From: Rhodanobacter sp. ANJX3 | GTDB taxonomy: Bacteria; Pseudomonadota; Gammaproteobacteria; Xanthomonadales; Rhodanobacteraceae | Direction: 5' to 3' | Length of the DNA: 64,000 bases | Assembly (NCBI RefSeq): GCF_014200755.1 | Contig: NZ_JACHCM010000002.1 | Location: 124,001 to 188,000 of the forward strand | In this document: positions 50,078-60,550 of the stretch, in pieces | How positions within the stretch are numbered: the first letter of the stretch is position 1 | Layout of the letters: the number at the start of each line of letters is the position of its first letter | Translations under genes and position numbers: made by a program | Notes under the pieces: model-generated | What the model saw: only the letters and a program-made list of their open reading frames with translations | Databases searched by the model: none | What the model was told of the DNA's origin: nothing

Positions 50078-50734
50078 TTACGGTGCCCGCGGAGCTTTGG
50101 CACGCGTGCGCTTTGACGGCACCCGCGCCCCGTCCTTGGGTGAAGGAGCGCCGCCATCGCTCATCTGTTCCATCCACGACAGCGTGTCGATGTAGGACAG
50201 AAAATGCTGCAGATAGCCTGGCGAAAGCTCGTGCATGAGGGTGAGCGACCGATGCACCAGGCTGCCCGAGTTGAGCGGTCCGGCATCGGCAGGCACCTGC
50301 TCCAGCGACTGGCGTATCTGGCTCTCGATGCGCACCTCGGACCAGATGTTTCTGAACTCATCTAGCGCCTCCAGCGTTGGCAATGCGGTGGTCCCAGGCG
50401 TCGCGTCAGTCGTGGCGAGATCGTCAACACGAGTGGCTGCACGGTTGGCGATGTCATCGAGCAATTCGCCTAACGCGCCACGAGCCGGCGCCGATGGCGC
50501 GGACACGCCGTCGGCATCGCCAGCGCAGGATGCCGCATTGTCGAGATCCGCCGCATACGCCTCGACAAGCTTGGTCAGCCGCTTATCCAGCAGCTGCCGC
50601 GTCGCACCGTCATGGCCTGCCGCACGCTGCTCCAGCACTTCGATGAAATGAAATCGCCACGGACTCAGGCGATCGGCGTTCTGCTGCCGCCACGCGTCGA
50701 GGATCTTGCGGATGCGTGATGCGCTATCACTCAT
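50078..50734 (-). CDS. DUF2894 family protein (last gene of the motor-like operon)
   Basis: The start at MSDSASRIRKILDAW gives 218 residues and overlaps the OmpA gene by eight bases. The N-terminal helix DAWRQQNADRLSPWRFHFIEVLEQRA and the C-terminal LTLMHELSPGYLQHFLSYIDTLSWMEQM match DUF2894. It ends with a basic Lys/Arg tail. There is no signal or membrane helix, so it is cytoplasmic. Family members occur beside DUF802/OmpA genes; function is unknown. By position it could be a soluble regulator or effector of the channel complex. Confidence 0.82.
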   Translation of the reverse strand: MSDSASRIRKILDAWRQQNADRLSPWRFHFIEVLEQRAAGHDGATRQLLDKRLTKLVEAYAADLDNAASCAGDADGVSAPSAPARGALGELLDDIANRAATRVDDLATTDATPGTTALPTLEALDEFRNIWSEVRIESQIRQSLEQVPADAGPLNSGSLVHRSLTLMHELSPGYLQHFLSYIDTLSWMEQMSDGGAPSPKDGARVPSKRTRAKAPRAP

Positions 50735-51374
50735 GAGCCGCCACGGCTGCCGTCGGCTGCTTCGGGATCGGCGAAATTTCCACGCGCCGGTTCTTCGCCC
50801 GTCCCTCGTCGTCGGCATTCGAGCCTACCGGCTGCTCGGCACCGAACGCCGCGGCAAAGACCGACGAGGCCGGCAAACCATCGGCGATCAAGGCTCGCGT
50901 CACGGTCAGCGCGCGCTCGGCGGACAGCTCCCAGTTGTCGGCGAATTGCCGGTTGCCGTCGCGCACTTGCCGGTCATCGGTGAAACCGCTAACCATCAGA
51001 ATCTCGTCGCGCGACTTGAGGTAGTCGGCCAGCGGGGCCGCCAGGCTCCTCAATACCTCATGCCCCTCGGGCTGCAGCTGATCGGAGTTCAGCGCGAACA
51101 ACACGCTGCCGCGGATACCGATGCGCCCGTTGACGAGGGTCACCCGGCCAGCGGCCAGCGGAACCGCCAGCGCCTGCTCCAGAGTCATGCTGCGCTTCGC
51201 CTCGGCCTGCTGCTGTTTGACCGCTTCATCCAGCTTGTTCGACAGCTGCAGCTGCACGCCGATCACGCCCACCAGGATCAGCACGAACACACCCAGCAGC
51301 ACCGACATCAGGTCGCCGAAGGCCGCCCAGATCGGCGCCGTCGACTCCTCGACGCCATCCACTTCGTCGCTCAT
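50727..51374 (-). CDS. MotB/ZorB-like OmpA-family peptidoglycan-binding protein
   Basis: The 215-residue protein has a short cytoplasmic lead and one membrane helix, IWAAFGDLMSVLLGVFVLILVGVI. The Asp of FGDLM sits where MotB and ZorB carry the proton-binding Asp. A short coiled coil (VKQQQAEAKRSMTLEQ) leads to an OmpA_C domain: GIRGSVLFALNSDQLQPEG, VSGFTDDRQV, NWELSAERALTV and RAKNRRVEI. It starts in an ATGA overlap with the DUF802 gene, so stator partners are made together. It would anchor the complex to peptidoglycan. Confidence 0.9.
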   Translation of the reverse strand: MSDEVDGVEESTAPIWAAFGDLMSVLLGVFVLILVGVIGVQLQLSNKLDEAVKQQQAEAKRSMTLEQALAVPLAAGRVTLVNGRIGIRGSVLFALNSDQLQPEGHEVLRSLAAPLADYLKSRDEILMVSGFTDDRQVRDGNRQFADNWELSAERALTVTRALIADGLPASSVFAAAFGAEQPVGSNADDEGRAKNRRVEISPIPKQPTAAVAAHE

Positions 51375-53467
51375 GTCGCTTCGGCCCCGGCGAGCGCCCG
51401 CTGGCCGGCGAGCTGCTGCATTTCCTCGATGATCTGCTTCTGCGACAGCATGCTCAGATCGATCACTTCCCTCGCCTGCGCGACGTAATAGGCGAGCTGC
51501 TCGTCGCTGCGCGCGAGCGACTTGTCCAGCGCCGCTTCGATGCGCTGCAGGTGCTCCATCAGCAGGCCGTTCGACTCGCCGAACGTCTGCACGGCCGCAC
51601 CGAAGACTTCGCCCAGGCTGGCCACCTCGACGGCACTGCCGGTGACCTGCGCAGCGACGGCACCGAGCTTGCCGGTTTCCGCCTCGATATGGTCGGTGAA
51701 GCGCGTGCCGACACGATCCAGCAGATCCGCCGAGGTGGTCACCAGCGCATCGACGGCCACGCGTTGCTCGGTGGACGCGTGGTTCACCGCATCGAGCAGG
51801 GTATCGAGTGTGGCCATCAGGCGGCTACGTTCCTCCAGCATGGCGGTATCGCGGACCATGCTGTCGGAGAGTTTCTGGCGCATCTCCGCGACGACTTCGG
51901 CAGCGGCCCTGGGCGCTTCGGACGCGGCTTGCACGAGCCGGGAAATTTCGGCGATCGTGTCGCTGGCGTGTGCCTGGGTCTGTGCCGAGATGTCGTGCGC
52001 GGTCTTCGCCAGCGTGTCGCAAATCGCCTGCTGCCGGGTTGCGGCCTGCTCGCCCGTCTGCTCCCACTGGTTGCTCAGCACCGCGGTCATCGCAGCGAAC
52101 GCATCCGTCCAGGTCGTCAAACGATTCTTGTCCCGCGATTCCAGCAACGTCTGCAAGTCCGCATGCGACTGATGCACGCGCTGGACCAGCGACGTGGCGT
52201 GTTCATCGAACGTCGCCGCTGCCGCACTCAACGCCTGCTGATGGCGGGTCGCCAGATCGGCGTTGACGGCATCCTGCCGCGACAGCGCATCGTTCCACGC
52301 GCTCGCCGCGCCGTCCGCCGTGGCGTCGAGGCGTGCAGCGACGCCTTCCAGCAAGCCGGCCGAGCGTTGCTCGAAGGTCTCGCTGAATTGCTGCAGTGAG
52401 CGGCGCAAATCCTCGGCCAGCGCCTCGTTCGTCCGCTGCTGCTGCGCCAGTGCCTCGTTCCAGACCGCGGCCATGGTCGCGGTGGTCGTCTCCAAGCCGG
52501 TCGACACGCCATCCAACTGACGCGCCACGGCCTGCGTCACCGTCTCGTGCAGCGATGCCGTTTCGCGTGCGAGACCGGCCATGGTGGCTTCCACCGCTGG
52601 CTGCAGCGCCGTCCCGACCGCAGCAGCACTCGCGGCCACGCTCTCCTGCAACGACGCCTGCACGGCGCTGGCAAGGCGCGTATAGGTAGCCTCGGAACTC
52701 GCGTGGAAGGCTTCATGGCTGGCCACCTGCCGCTCGCTGGTGGCCACGCTGTGTTGTTCGATGGTCGCCATCATCGTCTGCAGACGATCGACCAGAACCG
52801 GCATCAGTTCGGTCTGCTGCTGCAGCAACTTGAACGACTCCTCGCGCTGATGGCTCTGCGAATGAATGCGCAAGGTCGTCGCGATATTCGCGTCCAGCAC
52901 CTGCACCGCCTGCAGCCGCTCGCGCCGGCAAAGCGCCGACAGCAGCCCGAGCATCGCCGAGCTGGCCACGCCGGCGATCGAGGTGCCGAACGCAAATCCC
53001 AGCCCCTTGACCGGCGCGGCGAGCGAGCCGCGGATCGCCTGCAGATCCGTCGCGCTTTCCAGCGCCATGCCGGTGCCCCGAAGCGTCGCCATCATGCCCA
53101 GCAACGTGCCCAGCATGCCGAGCAGCACGAGCAAGCCCACCAGATACGACGTCAGCACCGGCACCGGCAAGGCCACGCGCTCACCCTCGATGCGCAGGCG
53201 CGTCGCGTTGCGCAGGCTCGGATGCAAACCGCCGAGCCAGTCGCTCAGGCTGGCCGGTGCGGAGGACAGATCCGTTACCGCGCGCGTCAGCGTGAACGTG
53301 GCCTGCCGATAACGATGCAGCTCCAGAGCGCCCGCCAGATAGCACACGCCAATCACCAGCGTAACGGCGGTCGCCAGCGGATTGGCTCCGACGTAGCCGG
53401 CGCCGATCCAGCACACCGCGGCCAGACCGACGAAAAACACCGCGAGATGAAGCAGATTTCTGACCAT
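51371..53467 (-). CDS. DUF802 protein: MotA/TolQ/ZorA-like channel with a ~500-residue coiled-coil tail
   Basis: The 698-residue protein has two N-terminal helices (about 6-27 and 31-50) and a MotA/ExbB/ZorA-type pair. The first of the pair is LTSYLVGLLVLLGMLGTLLGMMATLRG (105-131); the second is around PVKGLGFAFGTSIAGVASSAMLGLLSAL (152-179). From residue ~185 to 698 it is almost entirely Ala/Gln/Glu-rich amphipathic helix, ending IDLSMLSQKQIIEEMQQLAG. A motif AxWN(E/D)AL recurs with Trp at 336 and 391 and a weaker copy at 453. This matches the architecture of Zorya ZorA, whose tail enters the cytoplasm. Confidence 0.88.
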   Translation of the reverse strand: MVRNLLHLAVFFVGLAAVCWIGAGYVGANPLATAVTLVIGVCYLAGALELHRYRQATFTLTRAVTDLSSAPASLSDWLGGLHPSLRNATRLRIEGERVALPVPVLTSYLVGLLVLLGMLGTLLGMMATLRGTGMALESATDLQAIRGSLAAPVKGLGFAFGTSIAGVASSAMLGLLSALCRRERLQAVQVLDANIATTLRIHSQSHQREESFKLLQQQTELMPVLVDRLQTMMATIEQHSVATSERQVASHEAFHASSEATYTRLASAVQASLQESVAASAAAVGTALQPAVEATMAGLARETASLHETVTQAVARQLDGVSTGLETTTATMAAVWNEALAQQQRTNEALAEDLRRSLQQFSETFEQRSAGLLEGVAARLDATADGAASAWNDALSRQDAVNADLATRHQQALSAAAATFDEHATSLVQRVHQSHADLQTLLESRDKNRLTTWTDAFAAMTAVLSNQWEQTGEQAATRQQAICDTLAKTAHDISAQTQAHASDTIAEISRLVQAASEAPRAAAEVVAEMRQKLSDSMVRDTAMLEERSRLMATLDTLLDAVNHASTEQRVAVDALVTTSADLLDRVGTRFTDHIEAETGKLGAVAAQVTGSAVEVASLGEVFGAAVQTFGESNGLLMEHLQRIEAALDKSLARSDEQLAYYVAQAREVIDLSMLSQKQIIEEMQQLAGQRALAGAEAT

Positions 53468-53480
53468 GACGCCTCAATAA

Positions 53481-54221
53481 TTAGGTGCGAAGCGCTGCGA
53501 GCAGGCCTTCCACCGGATGAAAACGAACGTCCAATTCGGCGAGCAACACGCTCTGCACATCCTGGCGAAACACGTCCAGCCATGCGCCAGGCGTTGTCGC
53601 CGGGACAACTTCCGACACCTGCGCCTCGGCCAGCGCCTTCTGCTCGGCCTGACGCAAGCGTTCGAAACGATCGCCGAGCAGCGCTGGCACGCGAGCCAGT
53701 AACGCCTGCTCGCGCGGACTCAGCACACGCTCCATGACCGCATCCACGTCCGCCAGCCGTGCCATGTCGACCGACTTCTGCGCAAGCATGTCGCGCAAAC
53801 GGCCGCGCAGATTACCAGTAGCCGCCTGCATCGACCGCTGAATGGCCAGATAGCGCTGACGAAACACCGAGTAATCGACCGCTTCAGGCGCGCCCTCTTC
53901 CTCGGTCGACACGTGCGCGACCGCGCGCTGGCGCGACGCGGCGAATGTGCCATCGGTGGCAATGGCGCTGACCAACGCGCGACGCACGAGGGCGCACTCG
54001 CGCTCTTCCGCGCTGCCAAAGGCCTGCGCATCCACGTCCACCTCGGACGGCTTGCCATCGAGCGCCGTGGACAGCGCCACCGCGTGCGTCCAGTCGAGCC
54101 ACTGGCCCAACCGGTCCGACAACGATTGCCTGGATGGTCGAACGTCGACGTCCGTCAGGCGGGCAAGCAAGCGAATAAACGTCGGGCCACGGACACTGGT
54201 CCGGTGAGTAGCTTGCGGCAT
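53481..54221 (-). CDS. DUF3348 family protein (first gene of the motor-like operon)
   Basis: The 246-residue soluble protein begins TSVRGPTFIRLLARLTDVDV and has SLSDRLGQWLDWTHAVALSTAL, the DUF3348 core. A C-terminal helical part follows, with MERVLSPREQALLARVPALLGDRFERLR and FRQDVQSVLLAELDVRF. No signal or membrane segment is present. It lies 13 bp before the DUF802 gene and starts the operon, so expression of all four products probably begins from its promoter near 54240-54300. Function is unknown. Confidence 0.83.
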   Translation of the reverse strand: MPQATHRTSVRGPTFIRLLARLTDVDVRPSRQSLSDRLGQWLDWTHAVALSTALDGKPSEVDVDAQAFGSAEERECALVRRALVSAIATDGTFAASRQRAVAHVSTEEEGAPEAVDYSVFRQRYLAIQRSMQAATGNLRGRLRDMLAQKSVDMARLADVDAVMERVLSPREQALLARVPALLGDRFERLRQAEQKALAEAQVSEVVPATTPGAWLDVFRQDVQSVLLAELDVRFHPVEGLLAALRT

Positions 54222-54350: not shown

Positions 54351-55087
54351 ATGAAGCGCTTAGCGTCCTCAATATTTTTATTAGTTGCCCTAATTCCTAC
54401 ATTTTGTATTGCAGGAATCACGTCGGATCAGGCTAGAACGATGTCTCTGCCTAAAATTGCTCACAGACTTTTGGGCGAATCTGGCGCAATCATGATCGAC
54501 GTCGATCGCCCGAGATTGAGTAACTTGGCAGATGACCCCATTAGGTTTTATACCCACGCAATGGCTACTGGCTCGCAATTCGGTCTCTGCGCAGCAGATT
54601 GGGTCACCGTCGGGTTCAATGCGAAACAAACCATTGAGTCGCTATCGGCCGAGCGTCGGTACGGCATAGCGGGTGATATGTATCATCCGCCCGAAGCGCA
54701 GGACGATTCCAGAAAACTTTGCGCTTCTGTTAAGTCAACAAAAACTACTATCCCTCGCCTGATGCGCAAACCGCGTTGAGCGTCGCTCTATATGTGGATG
54801 CAATAGCGGGTAACGGTCCATTTTCAAATCAAAATTTCAGTTACGAGTGCACGGGCAGATGCGCTGAAGGCCGAGACGATCTCAAGTGGCTTAAGTTAGA
54901 TAAAATCGACTCGGTTCGATTGATCGACTGTCCAAAATCTCAGCGCGGAGCCGTTTGCGTCGAGGTGACGACTGGAAGCTACGAAGTCGGCCCGTTTCCG
55001 AAGGTTTTCGATATCTACGGGACCGCTTGGTACAAGTCAGTTGTCATATCCAAAGTTGTTGTCTGGGTCGGATCCGCTGTTGCGTAG
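54351..55087 (+). pseudogene. Secreted protein of unknown family, split by a one-base frameshift
   Basis: A strong ribosome site (GGAGG, four bases before ATG) starts a protein with signal MKRLASSIFLLVALIPTFCIAG. The first frame stops at 54779 after 142 residues (end RLMRKPR). From the five-A run at 54740-54744, the next frame continues sensibly as NYYPSPDAQTALSVALYVDA and runs to 55087. Adding one A to the run joins both parts into ~245 residues with paired Cys (CTGRCAEGRDD, DCPKSQRGAVC). So it is one gene with a one-base deletion, either real decay or a sequencing error. No family is recognised. Codon use is less GC-rich than in neighbours. Confidence 0.7.
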
Positions 55088-55224: not shown

Positions 55225-56309
55225 ATGAAAGGCTGGTTTGAGGCGTGCTGCAATCGCTTAATCACCGCTCTCTTGATCGGCGTCTTTGCTTCGCCATTGT
55301 CGGCAGCTACGACTGCCGAGCAAATACCTTTAAGTGCATACGAACAAGCGCAAACGTTGGTGCGACTGACTGATGGTCGACGCGTAAATTTACTGTGCAT
55401 CGGACAGGGCTCGCCTACCGTAGTCCTTGAAGCTGGGGGCGGCGACGACAGCCTTACCTATCGCATCCTGCAGGCGCACGTCGCTCACTTCACTCGCGTG
55501 TGTAGCTATGACCGCGCGGGCATGGGCTTCAGCGATCCTTCGTCTCATCCTAGTAGCGCGGAGTACGTGCTTCAGGATTTGCATGAACTATTGCGCCAAG
55601 CCGACATTCCACTGCCTATCGTGCTGGTCGGCCACTCCGATGGTGGTCTTTACGTCAGCATGTACGCATCGCGCTGGCCGGATGACTTCGCCGGGATGGT
55701 GCTGATTGATCCCTTTCAAGTTGGCGCAGAAGAAAATGCCGAACGCGTTCTTACGCCCTCTCAGCTCAAAGCCTGGTTGGCCGACGATCAAAACGACATC
55801 GCGCAAGCGAGGAAGTGCCTCGCGCTAGCCCAGTCCGAAGAATTAAGGCACCAGCCCCAAAAACATCGGGACTGCTTGGACGAACCGGCCAATCCCGATC
55901 CCGCATTACATCGCTTGCTCGACGAGCAAATGGCGCGACCGGGCGAAGCGGCCACCAAACTGAGCCAGCTGCTGGATACCTATCCACCCGCTGAGGGCGG
56001 CATGTCACCTGCAGAAAAGCTGGCGATACAAACGCCACGGAAGATGGGCAACAAGCCGCTGATCATTCTAGATGCTACGCATGAACAGTTTGACTATGGG
56101 CAAGATCTGCAAGATCGCCTCCTGCTTGCGATGTGGCAAGCCCAAGATGCTGCTATTGCGCCTCCTCTACCCGCGGTCGCCGAATCATTGTTGACGGCAG
56201 TACCCATTACATCCACCAGGAAAGGCCGGAGCTGGTAGCGCAGGCTATTCATGACGTTATCGACGAGGCGCGTTGCAGTCCACATATTGACTGCGCGGCT
56301 ACGCACTGA
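55225..56309 (+). pseudogene. Alpha/beta-hydrolase, frameshifted before the catalytic His
   Basis: The intact-looking frame (55225-56238, 337 residues) has signal NRLITALLIGVFASPLSAA, oxyanion region VVLEAGGGDDSLTYRI, SYDRAGMGFSDPS, and nucleophile elbow GHSDGGLYVSMYASRWP. Its tail after PPLPAVAES is out of frame. The neighbouring frame reads RGRRIIVDGSTHYIHQERPE, the expected strand with the catalytic His, and continues to a stop at 56307-56309. One extra C in the CCC run at 56170-56172 restores the full ~361-residue protein. As written, the enzyme lacks its catalytic His and is dead unless the base call is wrong. Confidence 0.8.
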
Positions 56310-56564
56310 GATTGGGCAACCCTGTAAGTTGCGTGCTAATTGGTGGAAATAGTCTGCTTTCGACCCATTTGAGCCGGTCGCGAGCGTCCGTTTTCGGGAG
56401 GGCTGGTGGCCAGATTGCAAAGCCGCGCTTTTTGCGCAGATCTAGGCGTGGCCCCGCTTGCGGTGTGAGGAGGGGCCGAACGCCTGTCGGATTCGGCGAT
56501 CCCGAGCATGACGTCACTACTTCAGCAAGAGCTGACTGGTGTGAGGCCAACACTGAACCGGCAG
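56310..56564. other. Intergenic stretch without a recognised gene
   Basis: About 255 bases lie between the broken hydrolase gene and the end of the PLD-like gene. A segment around 56350-56400 (GTCTGCTTTCGACCCATTTG, then GCGTCCGTTTTCGG) resembles short phrases near 60412-60440 and 62381-62445, hinting at a degenerate intergenic repeat family. No terminator is obvious. Confidence 0.35.
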
Positions 56565-59500
56565 CTATTTAAGTTTGCTTTCCGACTCGTGACTTGAGGT
56601 TAGGAGCTCATCCACCTGGTCGAGGAACGCGGCAAGCTCACCCTCCTTGCCGGCGCCCTCCGCTCGCCATTCGGCCATGGGTCTGACCATCGCAAGATCG
56701 CGGGCGCTCTGCGAAAGTTCATCCAGCCCTCTGTCGGTCATACCGCGTCCGCGCAGATAGTACTGCCCCCATCGAATAAAGGTCAGAAGCCACATCGAGA
56801 CCGCTAGGGAGCCGTCCCATCGAGTCCAGTCGGAAGTGCTGGCGAGGGGTTGTTGTACGATTCGCTTGTGCCGATTCAGGATTACCCGTACCGCCTGCAG
56901 ACTAGACTTCTGTCGCTCGGGGCTGCTGTAGGCGAAAAGGAACGCGGTGATGTTGGTCGTCTGGCCCTCGCGTGCGCGGTCAAACAGCATAGATTGCTGT
57001 TTCGATTCAGGCTCCAGCAAAGCAGCCAGCTCCTCAACCCATATCTCGCAGGCATCGTCCGTGTTGGCGCGGTCACTCCGCAACAGGGGAAAAACCACGT
57101 CCTGGAATAGCCACGGCTCGGCCCAGGCCAGTTGCCGCATGTGCCCCCGCATCGAGTCCACCAAAAGCCTCAGCTCTTTGCTTGGGATCGTCGTCGGCAG
57201 AGCGTCGCGCAGTGCCGCTAACAGACCGTTGTAGATATTCGCATTCGTCGGATTTTTTGCCGCTCGTTGAACCAACCAGCCTAGGACCCGCACTTGCTCT
57301 GTGTGGGAGAGGGAGGCGATCAACTGGAGGGCGGTGATGAGCCCTCCGTGCTTTTCCAGCTGTCGCTCGATCGCATTCAGTCCCATCCATTGGAGTAGCC
57401 CGTTGCTGCTACGAACGAGGCGTTCTCGATTCATCTCGCTGATATCAAACTGGATTGATAGCGAAATATCGCTGACGATCTGGCTCAACAGGGCCAGTCG
57501 CACCACTTCTCGGCCTTGAGGCTCCATTGGCACACTGGCCATCTGGGCTTCGGCCATTTCAAGCAGTGTATCGGGCGAACACCTCCACAAAAACTTGACG
57601 CAGAAGTACTCCGGCCAGGTCAGAGCCGCATATTTTATCGGATGGAATAAGTGATGCAGGTTATAGGCGCTGTGCAGCAGGGTCTCTACCGGTTCGCGAA
57701 AGAACCGGGCATCCAGAGTGGCCAATCCCTTGTCCACCTCGCTATGCGCGCGATTGAAAGATGCCTCGAGGAATCGCGCTAAAAGTTCCAAAAATCCACG
57801 CTTGGATTCAAGCTCGCGAATGCAGCTGTCTTCGGTGTGTGAATGAGCGAGTATCTCGCCAAGTACCTCCCAGGTCTCTGTGAAGTCCGCAAAGTCGCCC
57901 GCCTGATGATCCACGCATTTGAGCAGGCCAACTGTCTCGGGCAGTGCGAGCGACTCATCCTTCAGCAGATTCAACGCCGACATTCGTTCCCTCAACGAAT
58001 CGCCGCTCAAGCCTTTTAGCGACGGCTCGCCGGTCCACATGCCCAGCACGTTGCCAGCCCGCTCCTTCTGGAGAAAGAGCAGCGGCTCGTAACGCCTCGG
58101 CGCTGTAGGCGACGCCTTAGAGTCAAAGAGAAGCCGCATGGAGGAATTTTCGATATCACCTTTGAGCTGCGCGGCGTCTGCCTCCTGCACCAACTTGGAC
58201 TTGTATTGCTCAACCTCGAGCAGGACATCCGCCGGGATCGGGGTGACCAGTAAAGGATAATTTTCCGCGGCCTTCTGAAACGAGTTGGACAGGTTGAAAC
58301 CCGCGAGCGGTAGCCTGTCCGGCCCCATTATCAGGATGTAGCGATCGTGCAGTCTGCCCTCCTTCAGGCCGTAGATGCGCAACTTGATGCGATCTAGTAG
58401 ACGTTGGTTCTGATCACAGTTCGCCAGCAGATTGTTAATTCCTTCGTAGGCGGCTTTGTCGGATTTGCGACGCAGGGGTTTGCCTTCCTTGACGGGCTTT
58501 GGCAGAGACCTGAAGACAATGTAGTCGGCCGACGAGGCCGCACAAAGCAACACAAGCCCCAAGCCGGCGGCCTCGAAATAAGGATCAAAAATGACTATTT
58601 GTTGCCGCTGGTACTTAGCCAACAGCGCCCTGAACCACTCGACGAATTTGAGCCGCCCCTCGCCGTCGTCTTGGCCCCAGCGCAGAAAGAAATGCCCCTC
58701 CGACTGCGGTGGATGGAGTCGCGTAAAGAGGGATACGAGATCGCGATTGGCCGAGACCCAGGGATCCGCCTCACGCCCGCCAATGCTGTTGGTGAATCGC
58801 TGATTGTCGAGATTGATCGTTAAGGCTGCCTTTACCCGCGCCGACACGGACGGCCGAGTGGCATTTTCCAGCCAATCGAATTTGACTGGCCTGGTCCCGT
58901 GATCAGCCACATGCATCTGAAGATGAAGATCTCGAAAGTACCCAATCCGCCATCGGCAACACAACGTGCCCTCATGGGAATTCTCGTCATGGAAGGCAAA
59001 GATCTCCAATTCGGTGCTGTCAGTCGTTGCGCGCAACTGCTCGCTCAGCTCGAACTTGCACTCGAACACGTCTTCCGAGTTCCGGGCAGCTGTGGCAACG
59101 CCCGAGTAGACGATTTGGCCGTCATTCGCAATGCTCAGCCGGAACAGGAAGCCGCTGAAGTGCGGCACTTGCATCGGATTGAATCGGGCGACCAGTGCGC
59201 GCGGAGCGTCGGTCCAGCTCACGCTCAGCAAGTCCCGCTCTAGATCGTCCAACGCGGGAAAGACCAGCAACTCAAGGTCCCCGAATCGGACCGAGTCGGC
59301 GCCACCGAAGTCTAGTCCTGTATCCGCATCTAGTTGCTTGATCACCGATGACGTCAAGGCGACGTCGTAGTCCTGACCAAGCCGAAACAGCGCTGCTTTG
59401 TTGGCTTGGGTGATGGAAGCGCTGAAGGCACCGGCTCCGCTATGCGGGCTGGAGGGCGAACGGCGGTCATGCGCGTCGCGATTTAGCAGGTAAGCGACTG

Positions 59501-59903
59501 GGCGGTAAACCAGATCATCGGTAGCGAGCGCCGCCGCTCCGAACCGCGCTTTCAACTTGGCCGAGAGCTTGAGCTTCAGTTCTTCGCTTATGGCCGAGAT
59601 GGTTCGGCCAGTGCTCAATTGCTGTAAGAGGTCCGCGCAACTGACGCTTTTGACGTACAGATTGAGGCGGCTAACCTGCGCCTGAACTTGGCCGAAGGTT
59701 TGAAAGTTATCATCGTCGCTGGAGGACCAGGTATTGCTGGAATAGCTGTAGGGGAGCAGGCGGCCGTAGACGATGCGACTTTCAATCGATTGCTCGGACT
59801 TGATCTGCAATACCCACATTTGTAACGCGCAGTGGCGGACATCCTCCGAGAAAAGTCGCGCTAGCCGGCGGTCATTTAGCAGGTCATCTAGTACGGGAGC
59901 CAT
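56565..59903 (-). CDS. Very large PLD-like protein, possibly VPA1262-type, candidate conflict-system protein
   Basis: The start at MAPVLDDLLN has AAGGA four bases upstream and gives 1112 residues; an in-frame extension upstream to 59963 is possible. There is no signal or membrane helix. Residues 1-400 are a mixed domain of unknown fold. About 430-550 is phospholipase D-like: IVIFDPYF (437-444), then GRLHDRYILIMGPD with His519, Arg521 and Asp529, and GFNLSNSF. That is a single HxR/K-D motif, so two chains or a second diverged half would form the site. The C-terminal ~500 residues are helical and repeat-like. It recalls the VPA1262 family from memory only. It is monocistronic. Confidence 0.65.
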   Translation of the reverse strand: MAPVLDDLLNDRRLARLFSEDVRHCALQMWVLQIKSEQSIESRIVYGRLLPYSYSSNTWSSSDDDNFQTFGQVQAQVSRLNLYVKSVSCADLLQQLSTGRTISAISEELKLKLSAKLKARFGAAALATDDLVYRPVAYLLNRDAHDRRSPSSPHSGAGAFSASITQANKAALFRLGQDYDVALTSSVIKQLDADTGLDFGGADSVRFGDLELLVFPALDDLERDLLSVSWTDAPRALVARFNPMQVPHFSGFLFRLSIANDGQIVYSGVATAARNSEDVFECKFELSEQLRATTDSTELEIFAFHDENSHEGTLCCRWRIGYFRDLHLQMHVADHGTRPVKFDWLENATRPSVSARVKAALTINLDNQRFTNSIGGREADPWVSANRDLVSLFTRLHPPQSEGHFFLRWGQDDGEGRLKFVEWFRALLAKYQRQQIVIFDPYFEAAGLGLVLLCAASSADYIVFRSLPKPVKEGKPLRRKSDKAAYEGINNLLANCDQNQRLLDRIKLRIYGLKEGRLHDRYILIMGPDRLPLAGFNLSNSFQKAAENYPLLVTPIPADVLLEVEQYKSKLVQEADAAQLKGDIENSSMRLLFDSKASPTAPRRYEPLLFLQKERAGNVLGMWTGEPSLKGLSGDSLRERMSALNLLKDESLALPETVGLLKCVDHQAGDFADFTETWEVLGEILAHSHTEDSCIRELESKRGFLELLARFLEASFNRAHSEVDKGLATLDARFFREPVETLLHSAYNLHHLFHPIKYAALTWPEYFCVKFLWRCSPDTLLEMAEAQMASVPMEPQGREVVRLALLSQIVSDISLSIQFDISEMNRERLVRSSNGLLQWMGLNAIERQLEKHGGLITALQLIASLSHTEQVRVLGWLVQRAAKNPTNANIYNGLLAALRDALPTTIPSKELRLLVDSMRGHMRQLAWAEPWLFQDVVFPLLRSDRANTDDACEIWVEELAALLEPESKQQSMLFDRAREGQTTNITAFLFAYSSPERQKSSLQAVRVILNRHKRIVQQPLASTSDWTRWDGSLAVSMWLLTFIRWGQYYLRGRGMTDRGLDELSQSARDLAMVRPMAEWRAEGAGKEGELAAFLDQVDELLTSSHESESKLK

Positions 59904-60550
59904 AGATTCCTTGTAAGGATCTTTCCGCATTCTCATGGTTGCGCCGACGCTGGAGTAAGCCACCTTTACGGATTTATACCCACGCCAGCGGGCATCGTGC
60001 CCTTAGGCTCCAATCTCGCATGCTTGCAGGGCCCGCACACCGATCGGGTGTTTCACTCAATTGTCGGCGCAGCGACTCAAAGCTTAGTCTGTGCCAGCAG
60101 TGTACTGTCCTCCTTGGCCGGCAGCGCAGATTGCTTTATTCCGCGTCAAGTCAACCCTAACTTGCATGGCGCTCCTTCTTGCTGGCCTACCAGCACCACC
60201 TGATCTTTGCCACGTCGTGTAAGCAGTCAGGTCGGTACTCCCAACGGCCAATTCAATCCGGTATTGAACAATTGCCAGCTTCGTGAAAAGCATGCGTCGA
60301 TCACAGTCGGCTGGTCGACCCAGCTCTGCCGTGCACGAACAATTTGCCGGGCGCGGTGCTGCAGTCTATCCGGCGAGCGGCAGCTTTCTGGCAGCTCAAT
60401 TGAGACCTCGACTGGCCGCTTTTGGCCGATCGCAGCCTTTGCACGCTCGATAGCGGCCGGGCAAGCCGCGATGGATCCGCTACAGTCAGTCGCACAGGCA
60501 TAATCTCTTGCAACGCAAAAGCTGCACATCAACGCGAGGTACGCCATGAA
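59904..60550. other. Long gene-poor stretch, with a weak open frame 60227-60547 (-)
   Basis: This ~645-base interval has no convincing gene. A minus-strand frame at 60227-60547 encodes 106 residues starting MAYLALMCSFCVARDYACA, which could be a signal peptide, followed by Cys pairs. It lacks a ribosome site. Its middle (AIGQKRPVEV) derives from a TGGCCGCTTTTGGCCGAT phrase that looks like a repeat, so it may be spurious or a relic. The promoter of the PLD-like gene should lie within 59904-60000. Confidence 0.35.

Follow-up and report, generated by a model that had tools for sequence, protein, structure and literature searches.

The large open reading frame analyzed here, located in a 64,000-nucleotide stretch of a Rhodanobacter sp. 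ANJX3 contig (hereafter the window), encodes a further member of a named but uncharacterised bacterial family, VPA1262, and is a putative and probably one-protein phage defence. On balance, we favor the view that it is a stand-alone effector against phages or mobile elements, in which a PLD-type domain, probably a nuclease, is controlled by an alpha-solenoid. What is new here is a corrected active-site motif, a structural parse, a counted defence context and single-gene segments at guaA. The coordinates of all features are shown in the table below.

The protein matched the NCBIfam model NF040699 (VPA1262_fam) with 1249 bits over its full length (model positions 1-1026; cut-off 325) and the N-terminal domain model NF040700 with 462.9 bits (model positions 2-478; cut-off 80). 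Thus, the VPA1262 identity that a first-pass annotation had suspected proved correct. The protein shares its length and invariant residues with 34 homologues, and no difference from the family could be found. Pfam gave no match, no sequence similarity to any PDB chain was detectable, and PDB sequence searches with either the single protein or a PLD profile returned nothing useful. Our literature search found no functional report or experiment on any family member; in a 2006 study, VPA1262 served only to detect the Vibrio parahaemolyticus island VPaI-6 by PCR (PMC1464126).

The reading frame is continuous, and the ribosome-binding site is spaced from the ATG in a way that supports the 1112-aa start, which also agrees with where the closest homologues begin; an alternative GTG at 59963 would give 1132 codons (1132 aa). 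Comparison with six homologues yielded an overall pN/pS of 0.28-0.32 (0.22-0.28 for residues 1-399, 0.26-0.33 for the PLD part and 0.31-0.38 for the C-terminal half). Thus, the protein is intact and subject to purifying selection, and the 1112-residue frame originally proposed is real and not a chance ORF. No membrane segment was found (the best 19-residue hydropathy, 1.77, falls inside the PLD core). A sigma-70 promoter scan gave no site.

Table. Features of the VPA1262-family gene, its surroundings in the window and selected homologous loci
Feature	Location	Strand	Remarks
VPA1262-family CDS	56565..59903	minus	Uninterrupted ORF, 1112 aa; ATG at 59903, stop ends at 56565
Ribosome-binding site AAGGA	59908..59912	minus	4 nt before ATG 59903
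Residues 1-220, predicted N-terminal alpha/beta region	59244..59903	minus	AlphaFold2 secondary structure; within NF040700
Residues ~226-321, predicted beta-rich segment	58941..59228	minus	AlphaFold2 strands
Residues 400-606, predicted single PLD-superfamily domain	58086..58706	minus	AlphaFold2 and Foldseek
IVIFDPYF, residues 436-443	58575..58598	minus	D440-P441 invariant
H519-D520-R521, HxR active-site half	58341..58349	minus	Invariant, 35/35
Asp529	58317..58319	minus	Not conserved: D 24, N 6, S 3, H 1, Q 1 of 35
L538-S539-N540-S541, counterpart of GSxN half	58281..58292	minus	S, N and S in 35/35; from fold position
Residues 608-1112, predicted all-helical ARM/HEAT-like solenoid	56568..58082	minus	AlphaFold2; Foldseek
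Zorya type III operon (ZorG3, ZorA3, ZorB3, ZorF3)	50078..54221	minus	PADLOC E 1e-78 to 0
Small ORF pair	54351-54779 / 54776-55087	plus	Together read as a single exported protein broken by a frameshift
Secreted alpha/beta hydrolase	55225-56310	plus	Frameshift near 3' end
guaA segment, Herbaspirillum	L026:9737-13455		
guaA segment, Atlantibacter	L027:9722-13455		
guaA segment, Cobetia	L031:9745-13575		
PglZ fragment-BrxA-VPA1262	L002		Each overlaps the next by 4 nt; closest operon-like case
Avs3a	L041		392 nt upstream
TmtA	L010		
PifA	L005		
DpdF-like helicase and SIR2-type protein	L038		
HmaC	L014		
Type I REase (type I RM)	L034		
PD-Lambda-4_A	L024		
Helicase	L006		
LmuB	L037		
PDC-S39	L043		
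DpdF-like	L045		
PD-Lambda-4_A-like gene	L049 (E. coli)		
Type I RM	L012, L016, L022, L047		Deduced from shared operons and from clusters that include annotated HsdM/HsdS

A full-length AlphaFold2 model built from 30 homologues (mean pLDDT 73.9) begins with an N-terminal alpha/beta region, for which no known relative could be found; a beta-rich segment comes next, then a PLD-like block and finally some 500 helical residues. The block modelled alone (residues 400-606) reached a pLDDT of 85.9 and a pTM of 0.84, and each of the 25 PDB entries that Foldseek matched to it at E<=1e-3 is a PLD superfamily or PLD-fold protein. These include FAM83A, which was the best match (E 4.5e-5), phosphatidylserine synthases (E 1e-4 for those of H. 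influenzae and E. coli), Tdp1 and polyphosphate kinase (PPK1); BfiI, Zucchini and Streptomyces PLD come next in the ranking, and all 42 best-ranked PDB matches have the PLD fold or belong to the superfamily. The PLD fold postulated at first is therefore present in the prediction, and is as well established as a predicted structure permits. The beta-rich segment is probably a C2/Ig-like beta-sandwich: with the full model as query, synaptotagmin C2B and exo-chitosanase were matched over about 107 columns (prob 1.00), with TM-scores of 0.33-0.36 of target and in a region modelled at pLDDT 55-79, and these matches most plausibly fall on residues ~226-321. Residues 608-1112 were predicted to be entirely helical, as the first-pass annotation had claimed for some 500 C-terminal residues, and resembled solenoids of the beta-catenin/importin/transportin type (prob 0.5-0.89, E 1e-2). 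It should be noted that every full-model match, whether to solenoid, PLD or C2-type proteins, had an E-value of 1e-2 or weaker. A distant gammaproteobacterial relative (L125:9413-13070) consists of the N-terminal and PLD part only (529 aa, without the solenoid) and is followed by an overlapping 700-aa ORF, which shows no detectable relationship to the solenoid (hhalign probability 0.1%). The N-terminal/PLD half and the C-terminal half may be separable.

Residue conservation was counted over 35 homologues, down to 23% identity. The invariant set comprised D440-P441 within QIVIFDPYF (residues 435-443), H519-D520-R521, G535, S539-N540-S541, Q543 and D559. This does not correspond to the canonical HxK(x)4D(x)6GSxN: the protein has H-x-R, no conserved D, and GxxLSNS in place of GSxN, and the canonical acidic site at H+7 (residue 526) is occupied by M, R, V, I, F or L in homologues. 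Of the features annotated earlier, IVIFDPYF, His519 and Asp529 lie where they were placed, but Asp529 is unconserved; the HxR-D motif is to be written as HxR ... LSNS, and it is not a textbook HKD. The PLD nuclease AgaP, which belongs to an Argonaute system, stayed toxic when its acidic residue was mutated, and HxK and a remote GSxN were needed (PMC11442185); for BrxL, an HRD variant has been argued to remain active (PMC12839542). An absent Asp therefore need not mean inactivity. In SauUSI and BfiI, two protomers form one active site (PMC7913695).

Likeness to BfiI, SauUSI, AgaP and the HKD domain of BrxL lies in the predicted PLD fold (BfiI TM 0.46 of query), one HxK/R motif per chain and an SxN-type second half. 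In contrast to these proteins, the VPA1262 protein has Arg for Lys and no acidic residue at H+7, and it combines a beta-rich N-terminus with a solenoid of about 500 residues, whereas they carry a DNA-binding domain or an ATPase. The pseudo-PLD domain of FAM83 (DUF1669), although the best structural match, is eukaryotic, only 12-13% identical and set in another architecture. A link to Menshen NsnC, for which PADLOC gave one weak match over the PLD region (E 0.0097), was dropped, nine other VPA1262 homologues having no NsnC match; no NsnA or NsnB partner was seen in the window.

The Zorya-like operon reported 2.3 kb away was borne out by PADLOC as a complete type III set, at a distance of 2.34 kb from the VPA1262 gene. 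Zorya type III has been shown to defend against phages (PMC8565338). The VPA1262 gene is not one of its components (zorAB-DUF3348-DUF2894), being separate from the operon, and a shared operon was also rejected since Zorya type III is common in the genus without VPA1262. Of 35 congeners sampled, 13 had ZorA (66-92% identity), which in one of them was syntenic with mtn genes; thus, the Zorya operon may predate VPA1262 in the genus. One congener (G014) has the same Zorya operon and the same left-hand neighbors (permease, HiPIP, mtnBCD-like genes and C13 peptidase) and lacks the VPA1262 block; the DeoR-Nudix pair, which flanks this block at its other end, sits elsewhere in other congeners. The interval of 54.2-60.5 kb thus looks like an accessory insertion adjoining Zorya. 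The 'broken genes' described there were confirmed as a frameshifted alpha/beta hydrolase, whose likely missing C-terminal stretch sits in another frame, and a split small gene with a GC content of 0.50 (window 0.63). The GC3 of the VPA1262 gene (0.69 versus 0.84 for ZorA and 0.81 for the neighboring permease) fits recent acquisition. When the surroundings of the window copy were searched for att-like repeats, only chance-level matches came up.

The gene is rare and horizontally acquired. It was present in 1 of 45 genomes of the genus and 1 of 100 relatives, and class-wide 2 of 369 genomes were above the cut-off of the N-terminal-domain model. Counts above the cut-off in four families were 2/392, 10/398, 4/394 and 1/201, each including the genome used as centre; most groups sampled had homologues in about 1% or fewer of their genomes, and one family in 2.5%. 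By DNA similarity, 2 of 5426 E. coli genomes carried the gene. No homologue could be identified in 50,697 phage records, and five plasmids had one, four of which were typed as conjugative. The closest relatives (71-75% identical) belong to Gallionellaceae, Azonexus and a Myxococcota MAG, the last being the nearest (75%), and the tree, whose rows are mostly Pseudomonadota, gives no usable count of between-phyla transfers. Near-identical copies in Pseudomonas fluorescens C8 (L039) and Xanthomonas sp. LMG 31884 (L045), with branch lengths of 0.018 and 0.045, represent a recent transfer between orders.

Of the 48 homologous loci, at least 17 adjoin known defence genes, including BREX, type I RM, Avs3, Tmn, Hma, PifA and PD-Lambda-4, compared with 1 match among 57 ORFs in four stretches of the window's own genome. 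The scan covered mainly large genes, with one genome as control; as it favored large neighbors, the count supports association and gives no measure of its strength. Instead of being confined to conserved housekeeping contexts, homologues of this gene, rare as it is within the genus, occur in islands, plasmids and defence gene clusters, and the reading of the protein as a large conflict-system effector is well supported by association. A role as a BREX accessory gene was rejected because BREX linkage was found at one locus only (L002). In Azonexus, a HEPN/RES-domain toxin gene (L011:8721-9986) overlaps the VPA1262 start by 4 nt, and the two are possibly a coupled pair.

In Herbaspirillum, Atlantibacter and Cobetia, guaA lies directly upstream of VPA1262, and the core of its 3' end, AGTGGGA(A/G)T, is repeated 101-105 nt past the VPA1262 stop. 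The two core copies are about 3.7 kb apart with VPA1262 as the only ORF between them; in Cobetia the repeat extends over 135 nt. In E. coli VCSW5 (L049:4887-23457), this core flanks an 18.6-kb island that encodes a tyrosine integrase and in which VPA1262 is the last gene, and at the Pseudomonas locus L039 a 33-nt imperfect repeat (18 nt exact) surrounds the VPA1262 gene alone. Most homologues are not at guaA and have no close direct repeats. The guaA segments look like integrase-less, CIME-like single-gene cassettes, and in these segments a single gene seems to suffice as a unit of selection, a statement that does not extend to the window copy. With VPA1262 as the sole cargo of att-flanked segments in several lineages, sensor and effector are probably combined in one protein.

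In the mechanism that we consider most plausible, the solenoid and the N-terminal region would recognise an infection cue, either a phage protein or nucleic acid, and this recognition would release or dimerise the PLD domain. One active site might then be assembled from two protomers, in the manner of BfiI and SauUSI, and His519 would attack a phosphodiester by metal-independent phosphohistidine chemistry. The most likely substrate would be DNA or RNA; either the phage genome would be cut directly or the host killed. More tentatively, VPA1262 proteins might form a self-contained defence class, in which a sensing alpha-solenoid is joined to a divergent HxR/SNS PLD nuclease and which spreads as integrase-less single-gene cassettes, borrowing att sites from larger islands (guaA). 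Against the effector reading, the motif lacks the catalytic Asp and has Arg in place of Lys, and many genes in defence islands are not defence genes.

Among the alternatives, lipid hydrolysis ranks before an inactive scaffold, and both rank before a mobile-element function. The phosphatidylserine synthases score as well against the PLD domain as the nucleases do, so that the substrate is not settled by the fold. Together with the C2 matches next to the PLD domain, this would suit a membrane-directed abortive infection, in which the C2-like sandwich docks on the membrane and, once infection has been sensed, the PLD domain acts on phospholipid by hydrolysis or transphosphatidylation; in eukaryotic PLDs, too, a C2 domain is known to precede the PLD part. 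However, the C2-like TM-scores are low and the region is modelled with limited confidence, the same PLD model also matches the nucleases BfiI and Zucchini as well as Tdp1, and the protein has a single motif whereas lipid PLDs carry two HKD motifs. We regard this explanation as unlikely, though it is the strongest of the competitors. Slightly less probable still is a catalytically dead PLD scaffold that binds nucleic acid or a partner and senses or blocks without cutting. Such a role could be read from the missing Asp, the Lys-to-Arg change and the top match to FAM83A, a family generally regarded as non-enzymatic, yet the active-site H, R, S and N are invariant in 35 divergent homologues, which is hard to explain without chemistry.

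Two further possibilities appear much more remote. The gene might serve the mobile element, in excision, integration or the exclusion of rival elements, and not the host. This would suit the single-gene segments between att repeats at guaA in three genera, and the covalent phosphohistidine-DNA links formed by PLD enzymes could in principle support strand transfer; on the other hand, the guaA island of E. coli brings a tyrosine integrase of its own, and most homologues lie away from guaA without close direct repeats, making this role very improbable. A secreted or contact-delivered toxin is the least credible: the contexts of homologues are dominated by intracellular defence genes, and the window locus shows neither an immunity gene nor a delivery marker or signal peptide, although the type gene VPA1262 lies in VPaI-6, an island that also has colicin-like genes (PMC1464126).

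The VPA1262 family has so far been annotated across bacteria by name only. If the gene is indeed a one-gene phage defence based on a PLD nuclease, it would add an uncharacterised effector architecture and would account for a recurrent large protein of defence islands, and the guaA single-gene segments offer a clean natural experiment on whether a single gene suffices.
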